28,698 nucleotides of DNA from Bacteroidota bacterium (lineage in GTDB: Bacteria; Bacteroidota; Bacteroidia; UBA8524): positions 11,047-39,744 of the forward strand of contig DQHT01000082.1 in the NCBI GenBank assembly GCA_003531115.1, given 5' to 3'. Shown here piece by piece: positions 1,938 to 22,100 of the stretch (positions are counted from its first letter, which is position 1; each line of letters opens with the position of its first letter). The notes below the pieces were generated by a model that was not told the origin of the DNA, did no database searches, and saw only the letters and a list, made by a program, of their open reading frames with translations. The position numbers and the translations under genes are program-made.

Positions 1938-4127
1938 ATGAAACACCGTTATATTCTGGCCCTGTTCCTTCTTTTGGCACAAAGCGCAAGTTTTGGCCAG
2001 TCAAAATGGACGGCCGGTTCCCAGCTTCTCTTCGAAAACGAGAAGCAGCAGGGCACATTTGAACTGCTTGTAGAAGTAGACCTGCAATTAGCGGATGAAT
2101 TTTTCAGTGCCCAGGGCCTCATTGCCGGTTCAAAGATCGGTGCTATATGGACCACAAGGGCCGATCGGGAACAGGTGGAAAACATGCTGAATTCCCTGGC
2201 AATCAAAAGGATAGAGATCAGCCGGGTTATATTTCCGCATTTTAAAGTGGATGATGTTTCCAGGGTCGCGAGTAAGGTTCATTTGGTTCAGAACGATCCG
2301 CTGGGTTGGGGCATTTCTGCACCGTATACCGGTAAAGATGTGATCGTTGGGATTATCGATATCGGTTTTCAGCCCGATCATCCTACTTTTTATGATACCA
2401 GCGGACAGGTAAACCGGGTAAAACGGTATTGGGACCAGCTCGACGAAACAGGAAATCCACCGGCAGGTTTCAATTATGGAAGTTTACATTCGACTTTGGC
2501 CGACATGATCGCAACTGTAGATCAGGAAGAACTTCACGGTAGCCATGTGGCGGGTATTGCGGGTGGGTCGGGTTATGGAAGCAAAAACCGGATGTATGCC
2601 GGAATGGCTTATGAGTCGGACCTGGTTTTTGTGAATATCCGTTTTTATGACAATCAATATCCGGCCAGTGCAAAGGGCGATTATCTTGTTGCTACTCCCG
2701 CCATCATCGATGGATTAAATTATATCTTTTCTTATGCTGATTCTGTAGGAAAACCGGCGGTAGTCAACCTGAGCTGGGGCATGCATACAGGGCCGCATGA
2801 TGGAACCAGCCTCTTTGATCTGGCTATTGAAAATCTTACCGGAAAGGGGAAACTTTTTGTTGGTTCGGCCGGGAATTCAAACTGGACCCGAACGCATATT
2901 AGCGCAAACTTAAAGCAGGATACCCTGCGCACGTTTCCGTTTAATAATCGAAATGTGCGAGCTGATGTAGAAGATATGTATATCGACATGTGGGGAAGCG
3001 CAGGTACCGATTTTGAAATGGCCATCGGACTGGCCGATACAAATGGAAACAGGCTGGGCCAAAGTCCTTATTTCAATACCCAAAAAGACACCCTCATCCA
3101 GGGAATGCTTACCGTTCTGAACGACAGTTTTGGCGTCGATACGCTGGAATATAGTTTATCCATAATTTCCCGTTATGCGGCGAATAACAAGCCGAACATT
3201 CTTTTTGAACTGAAAAATTATACCCCCCAAACCCGCAGGACCACCCTTTTTGTTTACTCTGATTCGAGTGAGGTACACGCCTGGAATTCGGGACAGATTC
3301 TGAGTTGGGGGGAGGGAGGATTTGCGGCTGCATTTTGGGGACATACCAATGTTCCTGGTTTTACCAGTGGAAATTCGAATTATGTAGTGGGTGAAAATGG
3401 CGGGACAGGGAAACAGACCATTACCGTGGGCGCATACAACAGCAGCGTAAACATGACGGCCATTGATGGTACACCGATCTTTGGAGGCTGGGGAAACCGG
3501 TCGCCGTTCAGTTCCCGGGGTCCGACCGTTGACGGGCGTACAAAACCGGATATTTCTGCTCCCGGAGAAAATGTAATTTCAGCCTTTAACCGGCATGCAT
3601 CGACCTCCTTTCGGATGAGTGATGTTCTGGATACCTTTGTTTGGAACGGACAAACGCAATTTTGGGGAGCCGCTTCGGGGACGTCAATGGCCTCTCCCAA
3701 TGCAACAGGGATCATCGCTTTATTCCTGCAGGCAAACGATAGCCTTGACCCGAATATGGTCCTTGATGTTCTGCAAAATACCGCAATCGTCGATCCCGAA
3801 ACCGGACTGGTGCCTAATAATGACTGGGGTTATGGAAAGATTGATGCCTACGAAGGGCTGCGTTATATTCTAAATTCTGTAGGCTTAAAGGAAATTGAAC
3901 CCGAGACCTGGAAGCTCTTTCCTAATCCATCACAAGGGAATATCCATATTTGGGGATCAGCGCCTGATGCAGCATTTCGTGTTTATGATCTGCAGGGAAA
4001 AATGCTCAGCAGCGGACATCTGACTGACAACCAAACGCATCTCGACCTGAGTTCCGGGCTCTACATTTTGGTCATCGAAGAGCAGGGTTGGCAAAAGAGT
4101 TTCAGGCTAGAGGTAGTGGGAAAATAG
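1938..4127 (+). CDS. Subtilisin-like (S8) serine protease with T9SS type A sorting domain
   Basis: 729 residues. A signal peptide (residues 1-21, cleavage after 'ASFGQ') precedes a propeptide-like region (about 25-120). The S8 catalytic triad is intact: D141 in 'GIIDIGFQPDHP', H200 in 'LHGSHVAG' and S583 in 'SGTSMASPNAT'. The oxyanion-region Asn is probably in 'FVGSAGNSN'. Between the last two blocks there is an insert of about 170 residues (roughly 310-490) rich in beta strands, reminiscent of the jelly-roll insert of Csp-type subtilases. The last ~75 residues, starting at 'WKLFPNPSQGNI' and ending in 'SFRLEVVGK', are a T9SS type A sorting domain, so the enzyme is expected to cross the outer membrane and be released or surface-attached. 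The gene lies 33 nt upstream of the E1 gene, which has its own promoter. Confidence 0.92.
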   Translation: MKHRYILALFLLLAQSASFGQSKWTAGSQLLFENEKQQGTFELLVEVDLQLADEFFSAQGLIAGSKIGAIWTTRADREQVENMLNSLAIKRIEISRVIFPHFKVDDVSRVASKVHLVQNDPLGWGISAPYTGKDVIVGIIDIGFQPDHPTFYDTSGQVNRVKRYWDQLDETGNPPAGFNYGSLHSTLADMIATVDQEELHGSHVAGIAGGSGYGSKNRMYAGMAYESDLVFVNIRFYDNQYPASAKGDYLVATPAIIDGLNYIFSYADSVGKPAVVNLSWGMHTGPHDGTSLFDLAIENLTGKGKLFVGSAGNSNWTRTHISANLKQDTLRTFPFNNRNVRADVEDMYIDMWGSAGTDFEMAIGLADTNGNRLGQSPYFNTQKDTLIQGMLTVLNDSFGVDTLEYSLSIISRYAANNKPNILFELKNYTPQTRRTTLFVYSDSSEVHAWNSGQILSWGEGGFAAAFWGHTNVPGFTSGNSNYVVGENGGTGKQTITVGAYNSSVNMTAIDGTPIFGGWGNRSPFSSRGPTVDGRTKPDISAPGENVISAFNRHASTSFRMSDVLDTFVWNGQTQFWGAASGTSMASPNATGIIALFLQANDSLDPNMVLDVLQNTAIVDPETGLVPNNDWGYGKIDAYEGLRYILNSVGLKEIEPETWKLFPNPSQGNIHIWGSAPDAAFRVYDLQGKMLSSGHLTDNQTHLDLSSGLYILVIEEQGWQKSFRLEVVGK

Positions 4128-10677: not shown

Positions 10678-10750
10678 GGTGCGGTAGCTCAGTTGGTAGA
10701 GCAAAGGACTGAAAATCCTTGTGTCGCCGGTTCGATCCCGGCCCACACCA
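10678..10750 (+). tRNA. tRNA-Phe (anticodon GAA)
   Basis: 73 nt fold as a cloverleaf: D-stem GCTC/GAGC with AGTTGGTA loop, anticodon stem AAGGA/TCCTT with loop CTGAAAA (GAA anticodon), variable GTGTC, and T-arm GCCGG-TTCGATC-CCGGC. The acceptor stem GGTGCGG/CCACACC has six Watson-Crick pairs and one C5-A68 mismatch. The discriminator base is A73 and CCA is not encoded (next bases CTT), so CCA must be added after transcription. A clear promoter precedes it and an intrinsic terminator follows. Confidence 0.95.
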
Positions 10751-10826: not shown

Positions 10827-10991
10827 ATACAATCCGATTCGCTGCGGTTAGAAGAGGCTTTTTCACTTCCTGGTGAACCAGGATGGAATGGTCTGAGGCA
10901 ATCACAGAAACATAGGGGAGGGTGGACACTTCTACACAACATTGGGTGATGCAGCCAAAATTCCCCATATTTGGTACCTCAATTCTTCGTT

Positions 10992-12281
10992 ATGCTCGCA
11001 CAAGGAATATTTGCAGTGATCCTGCTTTCGGCCATCCTCCTCTTTGTCCGGAACGTAGGGAAAATAAGAAGAAATATCCTCCTCGGAAGAGATGTCGACA
11101 TGAGCGACCGCAAAGGGGATCGTTTTAAAACCATGCTTCGTGTGGCCTTCGGACAATCAAAAATGGGTACACGGCCTGTTCCGGCGTTTTTCCATTTGCT
11201 CATTTACGTGGGGTTTGTCCTGATCAATATTGAAGTATTGGAGATCTTTTTCGATGGACTAGCCGGCACGCATCGTGCCTTCCAACCGGTCCTGGGAAGC
11301 TTTTATACCTTTCTCCTGGGCTTTTTTGAAGTATTGGGCCTGTTTGTATTGATTGCCTGTGTGGCCTTTTTATACCGGCGCCATGTTCAGCGGGTTGGAC
11401 GACTGACCATGCCCGAATTGAAAGGCTGGCCGCAGAAAGATGCCACGACCATTCTGGTAATCGAAATTGTACTGATGGTTGCTTTATTCGTGATGAATGC
11501 AGCCGATCGCTCCTTTCAGCTTTCTACAGCCGGCACCATGCCGGTGAGTTCCTTCATCGCGCCCTTCTTCGATAATACCGGTGATGCAACGCTGAGTCTT
11601 ATTGAACGTGGTGCCTGGTGGTTCCATATTTTGGGTATCCTTGCCTTCCTCAATTATTTACCTTACTCCAAACATTTCCATATCATCCTGGCCTTTCCAA
11701 GTACCTGGTATTCACGCCTTGAACCCAAAGGTTCATTTGCCAATCTGGAAACCGTAACCACGGAAGTACAATTGATGATGGACCCTGCGGCTGCCGTACC
11801 TGATGGCTATGAACCCCCAACCAGCTTTGGTGCAAAGGATGTTCAGGACCTGAGCTGGAAAAACCTGATGGAAGCTTATTCCTGCACAGAATGCGGACGA
11901 TGCACGGCTGTTTGTCCGGCAAACATCACCGGCAAACTCCTCTCACCGCGTAAGGTAATGATGGACACGCGCGACCGTGTTGAGGAAGTAGGAAAGAACA
12001 TGGACGCCAACCAAGGTGTTTTTGTGGATGATGGAAAAAACCTCCATAACCTGATCAGCAAGGAAGAGCTCTGGGCCTGCACTACCTGCAATGCCTGCGC
12101 AGAGGCCTGCCCTATCAATATCAACCCTATGGAGATTATCTTTCAAATGCGCCAATACCTGGTGATGGAAAAATCTGAGGCTCCGGGAGAACTGAATAAT
12201 ATGTTCAATAACCTTGAAAACAATGGCGCACCCTGGCAGTTTTCTCCCGCCGACAGGGCCAATTGGACCCGGGAATCATGA
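10992..12281 (+). CDS. Membrane-bound Fe-S oxidoreductase, two [4Fe-4S] clusters (HdrD/DsrK-like N-terminal half)
   Basis: 429 residues from ATG 10992. A longer TTG start (10971) would place the -7-like CATATTTG box (10966-10973) inside the gene, so it is not used. The N-terminal ~245 residues hold about five membrane helices resembling the cytochrome b/NarI-like domain of respiratory oxidoreductases. The C-terminal part has two ferredoxin-type motifs: C298-x2-C301-x2-C304-x3-C308-P and C363-x2-C366-x2-C369-x3-C373-P. This is the usual membrane partner of a CCG-domain (HdrB-like) protein, and such a gene lies at 16402. Expected role: electron transfer between the quinone pool and a cytoplasmic thiol/disulfide or organic substrate; the actual substrate is unknown. 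No CCG domain is present in this polypeptide. Confidence 0.85.
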   Translation: MLAQGIFAVILLSAILLFVRNVGKIRRNILLGRDVDMSDRKGDRFKTMLRVAFGQSKMGTRPVPAFFHLLIYVGFVLINIEVLEIFFDGLAGTHRAFQPVLGSFYTFLLGFFEVLGLFVLIACVAFLYRRHVQRVGRLTMPELKGWPQKDATTILVIEIVLMVALFVMNAADRSFQLSTAGTMPVSSFIAPFFDNTGDATLSLIERGAWWFHILGILAFLNYLPYSKHFHIILAFPSTWYSRLEPKGSFANLETVTTEVQLMMDPAAAVPDGYEPPTSFGAKDVQDLSWKNLMEAYSCTECGRCTAVCPANITGKLLSPRKVMMDTRDRVEEVGKNMDANQGVFVDDGKNLHNLISKEELWACTTCNACAEACPININPMEIIFQMRQYLVMEKSEAPGELNNMFNNLENNGAPWQFSPADRANWTRES

Positions 12282-12456: not shown

Positions 12457-13146
12457 ATGGTAATGGACGTAAACTACAAGGAGTGTCATCCCGCCCGAAT
12501 ATTGGTGGTCGACGACCATCAGGTATTGATCGATGGCCTGAAGCTCCTTCTCAGAAAAGAACAAACTGTCAGCTTCCAGTATGAAGCCAACAGCGCTGAA
12601 TCTGCATTAGAGTTGTTGAACCGACATCATGCGGATATCGACATTATTCTCACCGACATCTCTATGAGCGGAATGACCGGCCTCGACCTGATCCGTGAAA
12701 CCAAAAAAAGATACCCCCGAATTAAAGTGCTTGTACTCAGTATGTACAAAGACCCGGAAACGGTGAGCGAAATTCTGGCTTCAGAAGCAGAAGGGTATCT
12801 TCTCAAAAATTCAGGAAAGGCCGAGTTGCTCGATGCCATCCGAAAGATCTGTCAGGGGGGTAATTATTACAGTACCGACGTGATCTCCAGCTTTATGAAA
12901 CATCGCACCGATGAGGAGAAAAAGTTCAAAAAGGACATCAAAGAACTATTGACCACCCGCGAAGTGGAGATTGTTCAACTTATCTGCGAGGAACTCACTA
13001 CAGCAGAAATAGCCGAACGCCTGTTTATTAGTCCGCGTACGGTCGATACGCACCGGAAACATATCCTCGAAAAAACGGAGAGCAAATCGGTGGTCAGCCT
13101 CATCAAACTGGCCTATGAATACAACCTCATATCCGTTGCTATTTAG
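12457..13146 (+). CDS. LuxR/NarL-family response regulator (orphan)
   Basis: 229 residues. The receiver domain (about 14-130) has the acidic pair D19-D20, phosphoacceptor D67 in 'ILTDISMSG', the switch Ser in 'VLVLSMYKD' and the conserved Lys in 'YLLKNSGK', so phosphorylation should be possible. The C-terminal GerE-type HTH (about 163-225) carries the recognition-helix pattern 'ISPRTVDTHRKHIL'. No histidine kinase is present in the window. The gene has 175 nt of upstream non-coding DNA and is followed, after 122 nt with its own promoter, by the OmpA/barrel gene. Its HTH is identical at about half of positions to the HTH-only protein at 16061, on the other side of that gene, which suggests related targets. 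Confidence 0.92.
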   Translation: MVMDVNYKECHPARILVVDDHQVLIDGLKLLLRKEQTVSFQYEANSAESALELLNRHHADIDIILTDISMSGMTGLDLIRETKKRYPRIKVLVLSMYKDPETVSEILASEAEGYLLKNSGKAELLDAIRKICQGGNYYSTDVISSFMKHRTDEEKKFKKDIKELLTTREVEIVQLICEELTTAEIAERLFISPRTVDTHRKHILEKTESKSVVSLIKLAYEYNLISVAI

Positions 13147-13268: not shown

Positions 13269-16049
13269 ATGAAAAAAATGTATCTGCTTATCGTTGCCCT
13301 TTTATTCTGCAGCAACCTTGTACTTGCTCAGAACGGCGACGCTTATTTAGCAAAAGACGATTATCAGGGCGCCATTCGGGCCTATCGCAGTGAAGTTCAA
13401 AACAACCCGGCAGCGTATTTTAACATGGCCAGAGCCTATTTCGCTATGCAGGATTTTGATGCAGCCATACTCGCTCTGGAAAGCTGGAAGTCGAAAGATC
13501 CGAAATGCGACCATACCAAGGCTGATAAATGGCTGGAACTTTTGCGCCGCGACGATCAACCCGTGAAGATCGAAAACATGGGTTCAACGATCAATACTTC
13601 CGAGGATCAATACGTACCGCGGGTTTCGGCAGATGGAAAAACACTTTATTTCCTTTCCGATGAACGTAGCGGGGGAATGGGTGGAGAAGACATCTGGTAC
13701 TGTGAACGTCAATCGGATGGCTCCTGGGGTGTGCCCAAAAACTTCTATTCCATGAACACGACCTCGAACGAGGGGATACTGGCAATTTCTCCGGATGGAA
13801 ATGTGGCCATCGTTTTTGGGAACTACAAAGGATCTTTTGGAAGTGGTGACCTCTTCTATTCTGTAAAAACAGAAAATGGATGGAGTTTCCCCTGTAACCT
13901 CGGAGGTACCATCAATACAAAAAATTGGGAATCCCTGGCTGCGCTTGGTCCCGATGGAAAAACACTGATCTACTCAACCAGCCGCGAGGGGGGAAAAGGG
14001 AATTCGGATCTGTGGGTGAGCCAGTTAACGGAAACGGGATGGACCACGCCAAAAAACCTGGGCGCTGCCATCAATACCGGAGAAGATGAAAAATGGCCCT
14101 TTATCGCTGCCGATGGAAAAACCATGTATTTCAGCTCAAACGGTCATTTTGGTTTTGGTGGCTCCGACCTTTTTATGGTGAAGCGCCTCGACGATAGCTG
14201 GACAAACTGGTCGGAACCTGTGAATTTGGGCCCTTATATCAATAGCATAAAAGACGATAAAGACTTTTCCGTATCCGGTTCGGGTATCAATGGCTTTGTT
14301 ACCCGCTCGGGCTCACCGGATGGCTATGGTGCCAACGACATTTACCAGTTTTATGTTCCGGTACAATTCCGCCCTGAACAGGTATTTAACGTATTCGGCC
14401 GTGTAAGCGACGAAAACGATTCAAATGCCTGGGTGAATATTCGCTATTTTGATATGGACGATGGAGCTGAAGTAAATAAAACCACCACCGACGCTGCCGA
14501 TGGCATGTATACCGTGGCCTTGCAAAAAGGTAAAAAATACCAGGTGGTGATCGACATGAAAGGCTACTTGTATTTTTCTTCCATCCTTGACCTGAGCGAC
14601 CCGAATTTGCTCAGAAAAAAGGAACCTTTTTATGAGAAACTAAAATTTAAACAGGATGAAGTGAACCGGCTTCAGACTGAACTCGACCGCCAGAATGCCG
14701 AGTTAAAAGCGGCTTTACAATCGGGTTCGGAGAATATTGAAGAAATGTTCGAGGCCATTGAGGCGAATATGAAACGTTACCGAAAGGCGCTCGATGACCT
14801 GGAGAATGTGATGGCTGAAGCCAAATACCAATGGTTGGAAGAAGAAGGCCAGAGTCTCAACCTGCGTCAGGATTATAAAGTACAAACGGCCAGGATAGGT
14901 GCGAAGTTCGAGCTTAAAAATATATTCTTCGAGTTTGGAAAAGCAACGCTCACCAAAGAGTCGGAAAAGGAACTCGACAAGCTTTATGAGATCATGGCAA
15001 AAAGCGAGATCGTGATCGAGTTGGGAGGACATAGCGATAGCATCGGTTCGGAAGAAGCAAATGAAAAATTATCGCAGGATCGCGTGAACAGTGTAAAAAG
15101 CTACCTGGTCAATAAAGGTATCAATACCCAACGTATTCAGGCTGTTGGTTATGGAGAAACCCAGCCTGTCGCCAGCAACCATAATGAAGAAGGTCGTGCC
15201 CTGAACCGCAGGGTGGAGGTTAAGATCCTGAAACTTCAAATGGACCGTGAAGGTGGAGAAGTGGTAACCGACGACGACAAAAAGAAGAAAAAAGAACCGA
15301 AAGAAGAAGTGGTTCCGGTTGAAGTGGCCGAAAAGGGAAATATGCTCGATCTCCTGCAAAAAGCAGCGAAAAACGGGGGCTTGCCTTCAGGATCTGACTG
15401 CAACAAAGAGGTGCAATATGGTTCCAACCCGAACTATAAACCAACCCCTACCAAGAAAAAATACAACTATGGAGGAAATGGAGGCATTTCCTGGAATTTC
15501 GGTGACGTAGATAAAGGCAATTTTATTCTTAAATCCTTTAATGTCAGCGTGATCAATTGGGGATACAAGCCCCTGGATCAGAAATCGCTGGGGGCCGAAG
15601 TTTCTTTTGTAACTAAAAAATTAAAAGAGCACCACTTCCAATACTATTTCGCGAACCCCGATTCAGTATCCCTGGGTATTGGTTATGATTATTTGAGAAA
15701 CTGGCAGATAAAATCCACGCCGATCCTGTTCTGTTATGGCTTTGAAAGCAAACTGTTTCTGGGAAAAGTCCTGACGATGACAGAAGAAAAGCTTTTCGGA
15801 CATGTGGCGATTCCGTTCGGTATTCGGTATATGATGCAGCCGAAAGGTGTGGTTGTTGCGCCTGAACTATTTTATAATCTGTCGCTTTGGACTTCTAAAC
15901 GGTCGGATGATAATGGTGCTTTTGAAGAAGGGGCTTCTTATCTTCGACTTGGAGTAAATGCGCGGTGGAAACTTGTACATGCGGGCGTTCATCTTAATGC
16001 TGGTCAAACAACAAGTTTCTTAGGCTTCAGGGCGGGTGTTTCTTTCTAA
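13269..16049 (+). CDS. TPR-PD40 propeller-CRD-OmpA envelope protein with C-terminal beta-barrel-like domain (PorE-like front part)
   Basis: 926 residues with a signal peptide (1-21, ending 'LVLAQ', no lipobox). Domains in order: a TPR-like helical unit (about 22-95); five PD40/WD40-like repeats (about 108-365) with the motif '[SA]xDGKTxYF ... G.SDL[FW]'; a carboxypeptidase-regulatory-like fold (about 373-440); a coiled coil (about 450-535); an OmpA_C domain (about 545-655) in which D590 and R605 have the 15-residue spacing of the diaminopimelate-binding pair; a Lys/Glu linker (about 660-735); and about 190 residues of amphipathic beta strands ending 'FRAGVSF', with the aromatic terminus of outer-membrane barrels. 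The first four match PorE, a T9SS protein that binds peptidoglycan; the extra barrel does not. Expected role: outer-membrane-anchored, peptidoglycan-linked scaffold. The stop is 11 nt from the next gene. Confidence 0.85.
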   Translation: MKKMYLLIVALLFCSNLVLAQNGDAYLAKDDYQGAIRAYRSEVQNNPAAYFNMARAYFAMQDFDAAILALESWKSKDPKCDHTKADKWLELLRRDDQPVKIENMGSTINTSEDQYVPRVSADGKTLYFLSDERSGGMGGEDIWYCERQSDGSWGVPKNFYSMNTTSNEGILAISPDGNVAIVFGNYKGSFGSGDLFYSVKTENGWSFPCNLGGTINTKNWESLAALGPDGKTLIYSTSREGGKGNSDLWVSQLTETGWTTPKNLGAAINTGEDEKWPFIAADGKTMYFSSNGHFGFGGSDLFMVKRLDDSWTNWSEPVNLGPYINSIKDDKDFSVSGSGINGFVTRSGSPDGYGANDIYQFYVPVQFRPEQVFNVFGRVSDENDSNAWVNIRYFDMDDGAEVNKTTTDAADGMYTVALQKGKKYQVVIDMKGYLYFSSILDLSDPNLLRKKEPFYEKLKFKQDEVNRLQTELDRQNAELKAALQSGSENIEEMFEAIEANMKRYRKALDDLENVMAEAKYQWLEEEGQSLNLRQDYKVQTARIGAKFELKNIFFEFGKATLTKESEKELDKLYEIMAKSEIVIELGGHSDSIGSEEANEKLSQDRVNSVKSYLVNKGINTQRIQAVGYGETQPVASNHNEEGRALNRRVEVKILKLQMDREGGEVVTDDDKKKKKEPKEEVVPVEVAEKGNMLDLLQKAAKNGGLPSGSDCNKEVQYGSNPNYKPTPTKKKYNYGGNGGISWNFGDVDKGNFILKSFNVSVINWGYKPLDQKSLGAEVSFVTKKLKEHHFQYYFANPDSVSLGIGYDYLRNWQIKSTPILFCYGFESKLFLGKVLTMTEEKLFGHVAIPFGIRYMMQPKGVVVAPELFYNLSLWTSKRSDDNGAFEEGASYLRLGVNARWKLVHAGVHLNAGQTTSFLGFRAGVSF

Positions 16050-16401: not shown

Positions 16402-17187
16402 ATGCAAATTCATATCCCCACAATGGCCGAAATGGCCGCCAATGGCGAACAGCCCGAAGTGCTTTTTTGGGTAGGATGTGCCGGAAGTTTTGATGAACGG
16501 GCACAGAAAATTACCCGTGCCTTCGTAAAGCTGCTCCACGCTGCTGAGGTGAAATTTGCGATCCTTGGAACGGAAGAATCCTGCACGGGCGACCCGGCAA
16601 AACGAGCAGGAAATGAGTTCCTTTTTCAAATGCAGGCCATGGCCAATATAGCTACCCTGAATGCCTACCAGGTCAGTAAGATCGTAACGGCTTGTCCGCA
16701 TTGTTTCAATACCCTGAAAAACGAATACCCGGAATTGGGCGGAAGCTACGAAGTTGTCCACCATACCCAATTTTTGAATGATCTTTTGAATGACGGTCGA
16801 CTTTCAATCGAAGGGGGTGCCTTTAAAGGAAAAAAGATCACCTACCACGATTCCTGTTACCTCGGGCGTGCCAATGGTGTATATGAGGCGCCACGTGAGC
16901 TCATTGAAAAACTGGATGCCGAACTGGTGGAAATGAAACGCTGCAAAACCAACGGTCTCTGTTGTGGTGCAGGAGGAGCACAAATGTTCAAGGAAGCGGA
17001 AAAGGGAAATAAGGAAGTCAATATTGAACGTACCGAAGAAGCTCTGGAAACCGGTGCTAAAATTGTTGCTTCAGCTTGTCCTTTTTGTATGACCATGATG
17101 AGCGACGGTGTTAAACATCAGGAGAAAGAAGGCGATGTTCAGGTACTCGATATTGCCGAATTGATCGCCCAGGCGAAAGACCTTTAA
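16402..17187 (+). CDS. HdrB-like (Fe-S)-binding protein with two CCG domains
   Basis: 261 residues with two cysteine-rich CCG domains. The second is complete: C152 in 'YHDSCYLGR', C187-C188 in 'LCCGAGG', and C226-x2-C229 in 'SACPFCMTMM'. The first is a variant: 'GCAGS', then 'EESCTGDPAKR' with a single Cys in place of CC, then 'ACPHC'. CCG domains in heterodisulfide reductase subunit B bind noncubane [4Fe-4S] clusters at the active site; GlcF/LutA-type proteins use the same fold. No signal or membrane segment is present, so it is cytoplasmic, presumably docking on the membrane Fe-S protein encoded at 10992, 4.1 kb upstream. The stop codon overlaps by 4 nt (TTAA) with that of the convergent giant gene. 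Substrate unknown. Confidence 0.88.
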   Translation: MQIHIPTMAEMAANGEQPEVLFWVGCAGSFDERAQKITRAFVKLLHAAEVKFAILGTEESCTGDPAKRAGNEFLFQMQAMANIATLNAYQVSKIVTACPHCFNTLKNEYPELGGSYEVVHHTQFLNDLLNDGRLSIEGGAFKGKKITYHDSCYLGRANGVYEAPRELIEKLDAELVEMKRCKTNGLCCGAGGAQMFKEAEKGNKEVNIERTEEALETGAKIVASACPFCMTMMSDGVKHQEKEGDVQVLDIAELIAQAKDL

Positions 17188-20100
17188 GGCAATACGGTGA
17201 CTGTTCCGGAATAGCGGTAAACTTTGTCGTAAACGCTTACCACCTCAACCAAATAGAGGTATACATCCTGCTGAACAGGAACTCCTTTGTATTTTCCATC
17301 CCAGCTTCGGTTGACGTCTTCTGAATAAAAAACTTCTTCGCCCCAACGGTTAAAAACACGGATACGAATGCTTTTGTAATTTCCGGCTACAACTACGAAC
17401 TGTTCATTAATAAGCATGTCTTGTCCGTTTGGCGTAAAGGCATTGGGAATAAAAACACTCAATTCAGGAATGATCAAAAGTACCCTGCTGGCGGTATCCC
17501 AACAGTCATCCATAGTGCGAACCAGGAGATGCACCCGGTATGAAACGGAGTCGTTATCGGATAAAATGGGGTATTCATAATAGGGATCCACGGCATTTGA
17601 ACTGCCATTATCCGGGTCGCCAAATTGCCATTCCCAATAGTTGATAACCCCATCGCCTTCAACAGTTGACCGGTCTCTGAACTGAATGCCGGGGAAATTC
17701 ACGTTGGTAACCCATTTATCTGCATCAGGTATGGCACGAGGTTTTGGAAAAACTTCAATGTTCACGGTTTCCGCTTCGGCGTAACAAGCCCCTTCACTTA
17801 TATCCGTAAGCACGCGGAGGCTTACAGGATAGGTGCCGTACTTGTTATACCGATGTTTTATTCCTAAAAACAGGTCAATTCCGGTAGTATCCTGACCTTC
17901 CCCATAATTCCAGGTATAACGGCTGTTGGCAGGGATGGTCCCCTGTACCTCGAAGTCGACATCCAATGGCTCACAGCCGGATAGCTGTTGGGCTACAATG
18001 ACAGGCAAAGGCAAGGTAATTACTCTGACTTGTTTGCTTATCTGTTTTTCCGGACATGCCGACCCCTGGCGTGTGATGACCTGTATCGTTACATTTCCGT
18101 TACTCAGATCGGAGGTTCCCGGGGCATAAGAACTCACAGCCAGGTCGCTGAATGCCGCTCCTCCATCAAATACCCCGTCGCCTGAACCCGTCCAGCGAAC
18201 CCCTGAGGCATCGCTAAATGTGGAATGGAGAGCAAGCTTTTCTCCTTCACACACGTCGTTCGGTATGGTAGCGCTAAGCTCAGGAGGGATTTCCAGATAA
18301 ATTTGGCCCTGTATCGAATTTTTACATCCGTTGGCTGCCTGAAAATTATAACCGATTGCATGCCAGCCTTTCCCCGCCACAACCATATCCATAAACGAAC
18401 CGTTGATGCCGGTGCCTGTCCAGCTGCTGCCCGTTCCCACCGGCGTAACAAGCGTTTTCAGGTCCAGGGTTCCGGCATCCATACAAAAAGAGTCAACTGG
18501 GAAATAAAGTTGGGGAAGAGGTTTGATCGTTAGCAATACAGAGTCAGTGGTGGTACAGGTATTTAATGAACGGGTATAATAAAACCACAACTGGTCACCG
18601 GTATATTGTTTATCCATACCGATCGATGCAGGTAAAAAGCCGGAAGGTGCCTGAATGATAACGGAAGAAGTCCAGATTCCACCTCCCGGTGTGGCCCCGC
18701 TTGCCGTATTAAGGTCAAAAAGCGGGTCATTAAAACAAACAGGGGTGAATGTGCCGGCTTCTGCCAACGGGATAGGCTTCACAATGAGCGTGGCGGTATC
18801 GAAATTCGCACAGCCATTTGTGTTGTATTCCAAGCGTAAAACCAGCTTGTAGGTGCCTGCCGGTACGTTTGTATTCAGGCGTAATTTGGTGTTTAACGGA
18901 TCCGACTTGTCTAAATTGGCAGCAATGGACGGATTTCCATTTGCTTCGTACCAGTCAACCTTGAGACCGGTATAGTTGGCGGGAGCTAATTTATAAGTAT
19001 TCAGAAGCAGCTCCTTTTCATTCGCACACACGATCTGGGTGTCGAGGAGTTGAAGTGCCGGTGCCTGTTTAACCTGAATGGTGATGTTTTTTCGTGTCTT
19101 ACAGCCCAAAACATCAGTCACTTCATAGCTTAAAACATGGTTTCCGGATCCTGCCAGAGCCGGGTAAAACATGCCATTATTCACTGATGAAGGCGAGGAT
19201 GTGCTTGTCCATACCCCATCAAAGGCGGTTGGGAATTGAACTGAGGTAATGAGCGACACGGCAGCGTCATTCGGACAATAAGGTCCCAAAGGTGCCAACT
19301 GATTATATGGGGCGGGATCCATCGCAACTAAAACCGTGTCGAGGTAAGCGCATTGCAGGGTATCGAATGCCTTTAGTCCTCTAACAATGAAGCCTTTATT
19401 CTGGGTAACGATATAGGTCAGGCTGTCGGTATTCCCTATCGACGCGGGCAATGGATTAAGACTAAACCCGCTTTGATTGTACCAGCGGTATGAGTCGGCC
19501 CCGGAGGCGCCAAGTTTTAGGGTATCCCCTTCACAAGCCCGCAGATCCGGGCCCGCGGTAAGGGCCATACTTGCCAGTTGATGAAAGAGGGTATCGTAAT
19601 TTTTACAACCCAAAGAATCCGTAACACGAACCCAATAGCTAAAATTTTTATCAGCCAGCAAAGTTCTGGCAGTATCTCCGGTGACCCAATAATAGCTCAA
19701 TGTCATCGAATCATTTCCTGCGTCCAATAAAGAATTATCGCCTTTGCAAACCCGCAGGTCGTTTCCCAGATCAACCGGAGGAGGAAGTGCATAGCTGACC
19801 CGGACCGTATCCCAATTTTTACACTCCGAGGCATCCGTCACCTGAATTACATAACGGGTAGTCGTATCCGGAACCACCGTTATATCTTCATTGGTTTCTA
19901 TAGGCCCGTAAGGGGTTGTGTCTGTCATTTGGGTCCAGATATGGGAGTAAGGTGCCGTTCCGTCCCAGGTCCGTCCGTCTATCCATAAAGAACCACCGGC
20001 ACAAACAAAAGTATCGGAGGGTATATCCACGCGCACAAAGTCAGCTACGGTAAAGGTATCCGAAGCCACCTCAAAACAAGGAGTACCCGTTCGAAACAAT

Positions 20101-21530
20101 AGGGTGGCCGTATATTTACCCGGCTGTAAAAATGCCGTATCGTATTCCATGTTGTTTGCACTTCCGAAAACGGGTTTGTTGTTTGCATCACGGATCGACC
20201 AGTTTGCCACAAACCCGGGGTAGGTCTTATATGGAACATAGTGGAGTGCCACCTTTCCGCAGTTCAATACCTGGGTAGTGATGGTCGCTTTCGGGGTTTC
20301 ACGGACAAAAATGCTGAACGAACGAATACTTTGTCCGGTAACCGGGCAGGCATTATCCTTTGCAGCAATAGTGAAGGTGTATGGAATATTGCTGATGTCG
20401 CTTTCTTTCGGCGTCCAACAGACTTCCCCTTTTGCGTGTTTCACAGCTCCGTTGTTATTGGTGAAAGTCGCCCCTTTAATCCCCTTGTTCCAGCTGATTC
20501 GCACCGTGTCATTGGTATTGGCATCATCGGTCACCACATCGACACAAATTTTTTGGCCGGTACAGGCATTGAAGGTATAGGGAGGGTCGATTTCAGGAAC
20601 GGCATTATTCGGACAATTGATCACGATAAACTGCATGTCGCGCCGCATTTCACCAACTTTGACCCAGGCACCACCTACCTTTCTCCATTCCGTTACTTTG
20701 ATTACGATTACCGCAATCTGGTTTGCCTGAGTGGGCCGGAAAGTAAGGTCGCCACTCACAGGATCAACATGAAACCCGGAAGGATGTGTACCATTGGCAT
20801 TGGGAAAGCCTAAAAAAGTGAGGGGTTTGGTATAACTGAAACTTCCGTAATACGTTGCCTGGTTCGTTTTTGAACGCATGGCCGGAGCCAGTTCAAAAGA
20901 TAGGCTGTCGCCATCCAGACTGTCTAATGCTCCGTTATTAAAGGCAAAATCCTGTCCGGCACAAATGATCCCCACCGGATCATTGGTAAAAATGGGACTT
21001 GAATTGCAGGGGGTAACACAGCGGTCGAGCTCTACATAGGTATAAAAAAGATCCGTATTGCAACAGGTGGTGGTGGCTGTATTCCGTGTTGAATTTCCGA
21101 TATAGCCGATATGGAAATTGCAACAGCTTGTATTTCCAAGATAAACGATGGCTTTAAAGGTTAGTTTTTCTATTCCGTATGGAAAGGAACAGGAACTATT
21201 GGACGTATTTGAATTGCAGGTGGAATTGCATTTTGTACAATATCCATCACATACCGGGGTAATATCCACACAGGATACCAATGTGGGGGATATGGTTTGT
21301 TGGGTATAGGTGCATCCAATGGCTGATACGAAAAGATTATAGGTGTTGGCCGGGATCGTCCAGTTGGCGTTGCAGTCTTTATAAACGATGGTTGTAAACT
21401 CAAAACTGTCGTTGCCCAGACAGCGATAAGTCATGTCAGCACCCATAATATCGCTGGCAACCGCTTTGTTGGCGGGAGCTAACGCGATAAGGAGCGTTAA
21501 AATCATACATGACTTCAGGTATCTCAACAT
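17184..21530 (-). CDS. Giant surface protein with Ig/PKD-like domains and T9SS type B (gliding-motility-associated) C-terminal domain
   Basis: 1448 residues from ATG 21530. The frame is open to 21632, but only the downstream start gives a proper signal peptide ('CMILTLLIALAPANKAVASD'), and an exact promoter lies between. Residues about 27-175 form a Cys-rich N-terminal domain beginning 'DIMGADMTYRCLG', a common opening for large Bacteroidota surface proteins. Many Ig-like modules follow, with 'VC.GD...L' starts and 'D..GC...DT' ends, then two PKD-like domains (about 1170-1355; 'YTWNYGEGQDT', 'YWEWQFGDPDNG'). The final ~90 residues are the type B sorting domain: 'IPNAFTPNGQD', 'RVFNRWGEEVFYS', 'WDGKYKG'. 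Expected to be exported by T9SS and surface-displayed, perhaps as an adhesin. No catalytic domain is recognisable. Confidence 0.9.
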   Translation of the reverse strand: MLRYLKSCMILTLLIALAPANKAVASDIMGADMTYRCLGNDSFEFTTIVYKDCNANWTIPANTYNLFVSAIGCTYTQQTISPTLVSCVDITPVCDGYCTKCNSTCNSNTSNSSCSFPYGIEKLTFKAIVYLGNTSCCNFHIGYIGNSTRNTATTTCCNTDLFYTYVELDRCVTPCNSSPIFTNDPVGIICAGQDFAFNNGALDSLDGDSLSFELAPAMRSKTNQATYYGSFSYTKPLTFLGFPNANGTHPSGFHVDPVSGDLTFRPTQANQIAVIVIKVTEWRKVGGAWVKVGEMRRDMQFIVINCPNNAVPEIDPPYTFNACTGQKICVDVVTDDANTNDTVRISWNKGIKGATFTNNNGAVKHAKGEVCWTPKESDISNIPYTFTIAAKDNACPVTGQSIRSFSIFVRETPKATITTQVLNCGKVALHYVPYKTYPGFVANWSIRDANNKPVFGSANNMEYDTAFLQPGKYTATLLFRTGTPCFEVASDTFTVADFVRVDIPSDTFVCAGGSLWIDGRTWDGTAPYSHIWTQMTDTTPYGPIETNEDITVVPDTTTRYVIQVTDASECKNWDTVRVSYALPPPVDLGNDLRVCKGDNSLLDAGNDSMTLSYYWVTGDTARTLLADKNFSYWVRVTDSLGCKNYDTLFHQLASMALTAGPDLRACEGDTLKLGASGADSYRWYNQSGFSLNPLPASIGNTDSLTYIVTQNKGFIVRGLKAFDTLQCAYLDTVLVAMDPAPYNQLAPLGPYCPNDAAVSLITSVQFPTAFDGVWTSTSSPSSVNNGMFYPALAGSGNHVLSYEVTDVLGCKTRKNITIQVKQAPALQLLDTQIVCANEKELLLNTYKLAPANYTGLKVDWYEANGNPSIAANLDKSDPLNTKLRLNTNVPAGTYKLVLRLEYNTNGCANFDTATLIVKPIPLAEAGTFTPVCFNDPLFDLNTASGATPGGGIWTSSVIIQAPSGFLPASIGMDKQYTGDQLWFYYTRSLNTCTTTDSVLLTIKPLPQLYFPVDSFCMDAGTLDLKTLVTPVGTGSSWTGTGINGSFMDMVVAGKGWHAIGYNFQAANGCKNSIQGQIYLEIPPELSATIPNDVCEGEKLALHSTFSDASGVRWTGSGDGVFDGGAAFSDLAVSSYAPGTSDLSNGNVTIQVITRQGSACPEKQISKQVRVITLPLPVIVAQQLSGCEPLDVDFEVQGTIPANSRYTWNYGEGQDTTGIDLFLGIKHRYNKYGTYPVSLRVLTDISEGACYAEAETVNIEVFPKPRAIPDADKWVTNVNFPGIQFRDRSTVEGDGVINYWEWQFGDPDNGSSNAVDPYYEYPILSDNDSVSYRVHLLVRTMDDCWDTASRVLLIIPELSVFIPNAFTPNGQDMLINEQFVVVAGNYKSIRIRVFNRWGEEVFYSEDVNRSWDGKYKGVPVQQDVYLYLVEVVSVYDKVYRYSGTVTVLP

Positions 21531-21548
21531 AAGTTGGGCAGTATCTAT

Positions 21549-21578
21549 CAAAGTTAGTAAACAATCAACGAATGGAAC
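21549..21578 (-). promoter_or_regulatory. Promoter of the giant T9SS gene (-33 TTG, N19, -7 TAACTTTG)
   Basis: On the minus strand, TTG (21578-21576) is followed after exactly 19 nt by TAACTTTG (21556-21549), a full match to the Bacteroidota consensus. The -7 box ends 18 nt before the ATG at 21530. Confidence 0.8.
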
Positions 21579-21598
21579 GAATACTTTAGATGAATCTC

Positions 21599-21606
21599 TA
21601 TCTTTG
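21599..21606 (+). promoter_or_regulatory. -7 promoter element for the 21612 gene
   Basis: TATCTTTG is an exact TAnnTTTG match and ends only 5 nt before the ATG, so the transcript should have almost no leader. It is divergent from the promoter of the giant gene, with about 40 nt between the two -7 boxes. Confidence 0.65.
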
Positions 21607-21611
21607 AAATC

Positions 21612-22100
21612 ATGGAAGAACTTGCTTTTCATCCCCGCTCACGGGTTTGGGTTTATACCACTTCCCGAACCTTTACTGACGAAGAAGTTGACCGTTTGAA
21701 AGGAAAACTCGACCAGTTTTGCCGAAGCTGGACGGCCCATGACCAGAAGCTGATGGCTGGCGGACATGTTCTCCATAACCGGCTTCTTGTGCTTTTTGTT
21801 GATGAAACACGGGCCGGGGCAAGCGGTTGTTCGATCGATGCATCTGCCAGATTTCTGCGGGAAACAGGAAAAGAATTAGACTGCGACTTTTTTGTGCGGA
21901 ATTTAGTGGCTGTTAAGCGCAACGGAAGCTGGGAATGGATGGATTTTAAATCAATCCCTGAATTGCTCGAGTCGGGGAAGATCAGTGCTGATACCACGAT
22001 TATCGACACTTCAATAAGCGAACTTGAGGAGCTTAATTCCTGGGAAAAGCCTTTAAAAGAAACCTGGCTTAAACGCTATTTAAAAGAACCGGCACTTTGA
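21612..22100 (+). CDS. Conserved Bacteroidota protein of the family often mislabelled 'ABC transporter ATPase'
   Basis: 162 residues, probably cytoplasmic (no signal or membrane helix). Family landmarks I recognise are the opening 'SRVWVYTTSRTFTDEEV', then 'FCRSWTAHDQKLMAGG', the core motif 'ASGCSIDASARFLRE', and the C-terminal 'W..PL.ETW..RYL'. Similar proteins in this phylum carry the name ABC transporter ATPase, but there is no Walker A, ABC signature or Walker B motif here, and the length is too short for such an ATPase. Function unknown. Its stop codon overlaps the start of the next gene (TTGA, 22097-22100), so the two are probably translationally coupled. Confidence 0.75.
   Translation: MEELAFHPRSRVWVYTTSRTFTDEEVDRLKGKLDQFCRSWTAHDQKLMAGGHVLHNRLLVLFVDETRAGASGCSIDASARFLRETGKELDCDFFVRNLVAVKRNGSWEWMDFKSIPELLESGKISADTTIIDTSISELEELNSWEKPLKETWLKRYLKEPAL

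Follow-up and report, generated by a model that had tools for sequence, protein, structure and literature searches.

The link that PorE-type proteins provide between the cell wall and both type IX secretion and surface adhesins depends on a separate barrel partner. PorE is described as a lipoprotein that stops at its OmpA_C domain and binds the separate barrel PorP (PMC7192894, PMC9143113), and in the reported crystal structure of the P. gingivalis PorE domain Asp576, Asn584 and Arg591 bind diaminopimelate (PMC7192894). The protein is reported to be needed for type IX secretion and dispensable for membrane integrity, and some of its homologues to have N- and C-terminal extensions (PMC5053529). 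In Cytophaga hutchinsonii, loss of CHU_0125 is reported to damage outer-membrane integrity and to raise vesicle output about six-fold; the accessible part of that report gives the protein 656 residues and describes no barrel (PMC5891637). Here we analyze a gene for a 926-residue PorE-like protein with a predicted beta-barrel of its own at its C-terminus, found in a 28,698-nucleotide stretch (hereafter the window) of contig DQHT01000082.1 from a Bacteroidota bacterium (assembly GCA_003531115.1). We consider it likely that this protein, with a PorE-like scaffold as its base, anchors the outer membrane to peptidoglycan in a single chain. Within a literature coverage that leaves most subscription papers and all preprints outside, we came across no account of a PorE-like protein whose C-terminus forms a barrel, and no PorE-like subunit was seen in the accessible part of the F. 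johnsoniae beta-barrel assembly machinery paper (PMC12611786).

The domain layout is given in Table 1. On the full chain, Pfam recognized the TPR unit, the OmpA domain (553-647) and PD40 in three significant stretches (best 265-303), and the whole-chain AlphaFold2 model, built from a 39-row alignment (mean predicted local distance difference test score (pLDDT) 80.4, predicted template modelling score 0.58), folded the N-terminal helices, five blades with strands from 114 to 362, a strand-rich unit compatible with a CRD, two further helices and an OmpA-like part. The CRD was merely hinted at by Pfam (CarboxypepD_reg 375-434, 16.7 bits against a cut-off of 32.3). An initial annotation made from the sequence alone had listed a signal peptide without lipobox, a TPR-like unit, five PD40 repeats and a CRD-like fold, all of which were borne out, the first by a negative strict lipobox regular expression and the last mainly by the model. 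The coiled coil that it placed next is indeed helical but is predicted as a two-helix hairpin. Its OmpA_C domain with D590 and R605 at a gap of 15 residues was recovered as well; N598 completes a triad with the spacing of Asp576/Asn584/Arg591 in P. gingivalis PorE (PMC7192894), invariant in 51/51 barrel-bearing and 34/34 barrel-less rows. Unlike PorE, the chain runs on for about 270 residues past OmpA_C. For this part the annotation had proposed a Lys/Glu linker and about 190 residues of amphipathic strands; the strands stand, but the barrel proper comprises 170 residues in ten strands, and residues 656-756 hold, besides the Lys/Glu linker, a conserved patch. The C-terminally extended architecture is, judging from its relatives, not a product of chance, because homologues of the same architecture are 31-64% identical across 90-100% of the extension.

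Ten strands were predicted for residues 757-926 in two AlphaFold2 runs, one on the whole chain (strands 757-925, pLDDT mostly near 90) and one on the C-terminus alone, and neither favored a globular non-barrel fold. The C-terminus was folded separately since a fold search with the whole model was dominated by propellers and OmpA domains. The region shows the marks of a transmembrane beta-barrel: an even number of amphipathic strands, an uncharged lipid face and an aromatic C-terminal residue, which is Phe in 50 of the 51 barrel-bearing rows. Hydrophobic residues alternate through to the end of the last strand, strands 1, 2 and 9 display little charge contrast between faces, and E787, R853, R899 and R921 on the polar face are invariant or nearly so. 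This sequence pattern, together with the C-terminal Phe, leads us to favor a predicted membrane barrel with a polar lumen, which on the strength of the model would insert in the outer membrane. We also weighed the possibility that the ten strands form a soluble periplasmic barrel, shaped like nitrobindin/FABP and binding a hydrophobic ligand. We hold this to be very improbable, given that the alternating hydrophobic residues and the terminal Phe argue against it and that the four conserved charged residues are consistent with the polar lumen of a membrane barrel; in the fold search, the top two membrane barrels also outscored the best soluble barrel by 1.1-1.4 Z units, a modest margin.

The predicted membrane barrel belongs to a family that, by these searches, is unnamed. 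With E values up to 1, the 12 members of barrel set A3 had no match in Pfam or NCBIfam except one weak single-member match per library, none among PDB sequences, and none to PF11751 (PorP/SprF; 0/12) or to the omptin Pfam family; the window's barrel had no match in PHROG. An hhalign comparison with six PorP-type proteins of the same genome gave a probability of 1.5%. PorP/SprF structures were also missing from the 50 fold-match rows for the C-terminus, an absence that excludes nothing. By sequence, the barrel is thus not a PorP/SprF. Among proteins of 0.55-1.75 times the length of residues 735-926, 56 candidates for a stand-alone barrel shared words with that region and none reached an E value up to 0.01. 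The idea that stop loss fused a porP-porE operon is not supported, the barrel not being PorP-like; moreover, porP precedes the PorE-like gene at the two such loci of the window's genome (C57, C66), so read-through would put the barrel at the N-terminus.

A search with residues 660-926 returned 32 proteins, the query included, and a search started from the most divergent of these returned 12, 9 of them new; alignment A2 comprises 39 of these 41 proteins, two near-copies being omitted. Relatives with the same domain order were thus found, and barrel-less PorE-like relatives exist beside them. In the window's own class, a profile of the extension matched 10 of 395 genomes, each with a single copy (E 1.9e-54 or better, frames of 853-962 residues). 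Across the phylum it matched 8 of 395: the own genome, five members of a distant family (E 1.0e-13 to 6.9e-19), G646 of another family (E 6.4e-88) and G474 (E 4.2e-4). We rejected G474 as a family member, its barrel-like part being N-terminal and its OmpA-like part C-terminal by eye; this weak match is a 601-residue protein (L084:8097-9902). In the order to which the distant family belongs, 6 of 116 genomes were positive, including a doubtful match in G787 (E 1.5e-4; a 193-residue frame with internal stops).

For comparison, 51 barrel-bearing rows (50 of them distinct when compared over their whole length) were assembled from 36 rows of A2 and 15 genome loci, omitting the fragments P0002, P0008 and P0040. 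The 34 barrel-less rows are a sample of frames of at least 500 residues from a set of genome loci, without L004, L005, L008 and L014 (cut or propeller-less) or L019 and L020 (barrel-bearing and represented in the other set), and include a few proteins just distantly PorE-like. A tree on residues 96-440 and 536-654, quick, midpoint-rooted and with several long barrel-less branches, separated 51 barrel-bearing from 33 barrel-less rows (one was too short) by a single change, with a support of 98 in the Shimodaira-Hasegawa-like approximate likelihood-ratio test. By this tree the barrel carriers are one clade. Separately, a 987-residue PorE-like protein (L021, in G034) carries another C-terminal extension resembling, by eye, two SPOR repeats; additions at the C-terminus of PorE-like scaffolds may thus have occurred repeatedly.

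The barrel-bearing clade is marked by two cysteines. Every one of the 51 barrel-bearing rows has Cys209, whereas the 33 barrel-less rows with a residue at that position all carry a different one (Val, Arg, Gln, Lys, Ala and Glu among them); Cys711 was likewise Cys in 51/51 barrel-bearing rows. Twelve rows, of which six belong to genomes outside the own class, have no cysteines but these two after residue 25. Cys711 lies in the patch ahead of the barrel, which shows a mean frequency of the commonest residue of 0.742, against 0.526 (linker) and 0.407 in its flanks, with A699, A700, G703, P706 and C711 invariant in the 51 rows; by the same measure the barrel itself scores 0.528 and the OmpA part 0.773. 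The simplest reading of this pattern is that Cys209 and Cys711 probably form a disulfide pinning the propeller to the stretch ahead of the membrane. Of the 16 carrier genomes, one had a VKOR. On the evidence of the tree, the barrel, both cysteines and most of the patch arose on one branch, and the cysteine statistics therefore represent one event, never lost in the examined rows.

The helical hairpin follows a similar distribution. The interval 443-535 spans 91-94 residues in 44 of the 51 barrel-bearing rows and 11-16 in the other 7, as compared with at most 15 residues in 33 of 34 barrel-less rows, the exception being L038 (in G045) with about 88. Among these sequences, the hairpin is nearly exclusive to the barrel-bearing clade, and a length this constant is more suggestive of a spacer than of a flexible linker. 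As far as sequence comparison goes, the cysteine pair, the conserved patch and this length-constant hairpin are the new features of the clade, and pair and spacer make a PorE-like variant with its own barrel directly testable.

We also asked whether the barrel is a general replacement for a lipid anchor, and rejected the idea. The PorE trait of a lipoprotein signal was absent from the window protein by the strict expression, yet most barrel-less relatives were negative too. Positives numbered 1/36 among barrel-bearing and 2/38 among listed extension-less rows, so that loss of the lipobox and presence of the barrel do not go together; the 38-row list also held the barrel-bearing L019 and L020 as well as some OmpA proteins unlike PorE, and the expression misses at least one probable lipoprotein (L006).

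The case for a one-chain anchor is built on the architecture, the ten predicted strands, the membrane-barrel sequence pattern, the invariant triad, the exclusive cysteine pair and the single clade. In the mechanism that we propose, the signal peptide would send the protein to the periplasm, the ten-strand barrel would insert in the outer membrane with both ends periplasmic, and the OmpA_C domain would grip diaminopimelate of the wall. The TPR unit and the propeller may then serve as a periplasmic docking platform, with the probable Cys209-Cys711 disulfide pinning the propeller under the barrel. If the propeller is pinned in this manner, the wall-binding OmpA domain would hang as a loop between two fixed points. 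Such an anchor would presumably bear load, and by analogy with PorE-PorP its propeller may dock a surface or secretion component. Sequence and model thus support the initial annotation's proposal of an outer-membrane-anchored, peptidoglycan-bound scaffold with a periplasmic propeller.

What such an anchor would be for can be read in two ways. The protein might serve envelope integrity in general, as a tether of the CHU_0125 kind that does not take part in secretion, which we regard as a reasonable possibility though short of an even chance. CHU_0125 is the best NCBIfam match (NF053607, 236 bits, against 221 for PorE, NF052230), the phenotype of its loss is one of envelope damage and vesiculation (PMC5891637), and the window gene's family is rare, with one copy per genome and neighbors that vary between most lineages. 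However, both scores fall far below the curated cut-offs (620 and 600, the latter exceeded by no gene of the 16 carrier genomes), a propeller and a TPR unit exceed the needs of a plain tether, and PorE is reported to be dispensable for integrity (PMC5053529).

Alternatively, the chain might be a type IX secretion anchor in itself, the barrel taking the PorP/SprF role of holding a secreted surface protein and the remainder that of PorE; this we consider slightly less probable than the tether. Such a role rests on homology and on nearby cargo genes. Nine of the 16 carrier loci have genes with type IX sorting domains near the barrel-bearing gene. These include all five distant-family loci, where the divergent neighbor, 149-242 bases away, encodes an FG-GAP/Ig/fn3 protein of 1680-1974 residues with a type A tail. 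The next two upstream genes in G368 have type A tails, the next downstream gene in G252 has a CHU_C domain, and in the window and G001 a CHU_C protein lies two genes downstream. These nine loci, however, represent only about four lineages, cargo genes are common in such genomes, and in the remaining seven loci the scanned neighbors held no type IX sorting domain.

The secretion machinery itself bears on the type IX role in both directions. PorE-PorP-type B cargo complexes are known and go with a porP-then-porE gene arrangement (PMC9143113, PMC12618676), and in the window's genome two barrel-less PorE-like genes stand directly behind PorP/SprF genes at C57 and C66. The five distant-family carriers have SprA and no PF11751 match, subject to the sensitivity of the model, and there the barrel-bearing protein is the only propeller match to the PorE model (E 1e-20), although that model also matched the OmpA domain of a 493-497-residue frame in three of the five. 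G646 is similar, with one weak partial PorP match above the cut-off (30.1 bits). By contrast, the barrel is unrelated to PorP/SprF by sequence and has ten strands against 14 reported for PorP (PMC9143113), and all 10 own-class carriers keep PorP/SprF genes and a separate PorE-like gene, so that nothing is replaced in that class. SprA was present in 16/16 carriers, but with 143 of 149 genomes of the class having it, this co-occurrence is uninformative there. Neither the window nor any of the 16 fetched loci yielded a PorP-like open reading frame; G038 does have a PorP/SprF match at a distance of about 10 kb from the gene, beyond the fetched stretch. Weighing the sequence evidence, we give a plain tether a slight edge over a type IX role.

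The neighborhood of the gene is otherwise little conserved: among the fetched loci, only that of G001, from the same genus, shares the window's gene order. Fer4 and CCG-domain proteins are often paired, and in the window the two genes are split by the response regulator and the barrel-bearing gene. A relative of this regulator was found in 9 of 16 carrier loci (the window, G001, G227, G368 and all five distant-family loci), and none was found in the other 7; in G227 and the distant-family loci it is accompanied by an adjacent histidine kinase. Such response regulators are common, so we make no claim for the regulator as a partner. In the distant-family loci (L079-L083, family f90), the giant type A cargo gene stands on one side and the regulator and kinase on the other; in one of them the kinase (L081:4717-7695) in addition scores 31.0 bits, against a cut-off of 27, with the model of the PorZ N-terminal propeller.

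Table 1 Features of the barrel-bearing gene and its surroundings in the window.
Feature	Position	Strand	Basis or remark
Whole gene, 926-residue PorE-like protein with C-terminal barrel	13269..16049	+	Open reading frame, Pfam, AlphaFold2
Signal peptide, about residues 1-20, probable cut before QNGD	13269..13328	+	Read from sequence; no lipobox
TPR unit, residues 23-92	13335..13544	+	Pfam TPR_19 27-80; modelled helices 23-92
Five-bladed PD40 propeller, residues 99-366	13563..14366	+
Cys209, in P-x-N-L-G loop joining blades 2 and 3	13893..13895	+	51/51 barrel-bearing rows
CRD-like beta domain, residues 372-441	14382..14591	+	Model; weak Pfam CarboxypepD_reg
Helical hairpin spacer, helices 454-485 and 490-526	14628..14846	+	AlphaFold2 model; interval length
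OmpA_C peptidoglycan-binding domain, residues 549-655 (D590, N598, R605)	14913..15233	+	Pfam OmpA 81.5 bits
Lys/Glu-rich linker, residues 656-687	15234..15329	+	Conservation 0.526; pLDDT <50 for 656-683
Conserved patch ahead of barrel, residues 688-713 (AAxxGGLPSGSxC)	15330..15407	+	Mean conservation 0.742
Cys711	15399..15401	+	51/51 barrel-bearing rows
Predicted ten-stranded beta-barrel, residues 757-926, last residue Phe	15537..16046	+	AlphaFold2 and sequence pattern
Intrinsic terminator-like stem, 277 bases past stop codon	16327..16351	+	z -3.83
Subtilase with type A type IX sorting tail	1938-4127
tRNA gene	10678-10750		Rfam
Fer4 protein	10971-12281
LuxR-type response regulator	12457-13146		Directly upstream of barrel-bearing gene
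CCG-domain protein	16402-17187		Downstream
1482-residue PKD and CHU_C (type B signal) protein	17184-21632	opposite	Two genes downstream

A wider reading would set these proteins apart as a family of their own: wall anchors integral to the outer membrane and stapled by a disulfide, with a PorE scaffold that has gained a barrel, that stand in for PorP/SprF and a separate PorE where translocon-bearing lineages lack both, and that dock secreted machinery or surface proteins, perhaps the adjacent cargo, to the wall, with the hairpin, by being present or absent, setting the periplasmic reach. We put this forward as doubtful speculation. A lineage with the translocon in which neither PorP nor a separate PorE was detected would nevertheless be a natural case for the roles of those two parts. 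If a version with its own barrel is real, a single purified chain would contain the whole membrane-to-wall link and allow its geometry to be determined, and the cysteine pair would offer a direct and cheap handle on the position of the propeller under the barrel.

By sequence, PorE and CHU_0125 are the closest known proteins. With PorE, the window protein shares the order TPR, five-bladed propeller, CRD (from the model) and OmpA_C, as well as the wall-binding Asp/Asn/Arg at equal spacing; it differs in lacking a lipobox and in adding the helical hairpin, the Cys pair and its own barrel, whereas the PorE chain is described as ending at OmpA_C, as the initial annotation had said of PorE-type proteins (PMC7192894, PMC9143113). 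With CHU_0125 it shares TPR, PD40 and OmpA_C in a single chain. PorP/SprF resembles it as an outer-membrane barrel working with a PorE-like partner, but is encoded by a separate gene and has no sequence link to the window's barrel. Classical OmpA and OprF likewise join a membrane barrel and an OmpA_C wall-binding domain in one chain, with the barrel N-terminal (PMC5053529); as the initial annotation had noted, the order is reversed here, where Pfam and the model place the TPR unit and the propeller first and the ten-strand barrel last. Omptins, OpcA and the designed TMB10 are alike in fold only, with no sequence match, and a shared function is not implied. The classical OmpA/OprF barrel has eight strands. 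Intimin and invasin have a periplasmic wall-binding domain before the membrane barrel, as here, but that domain is LysM instead of OmpA_C, the barrel has 12 strands and a passenger follows it.
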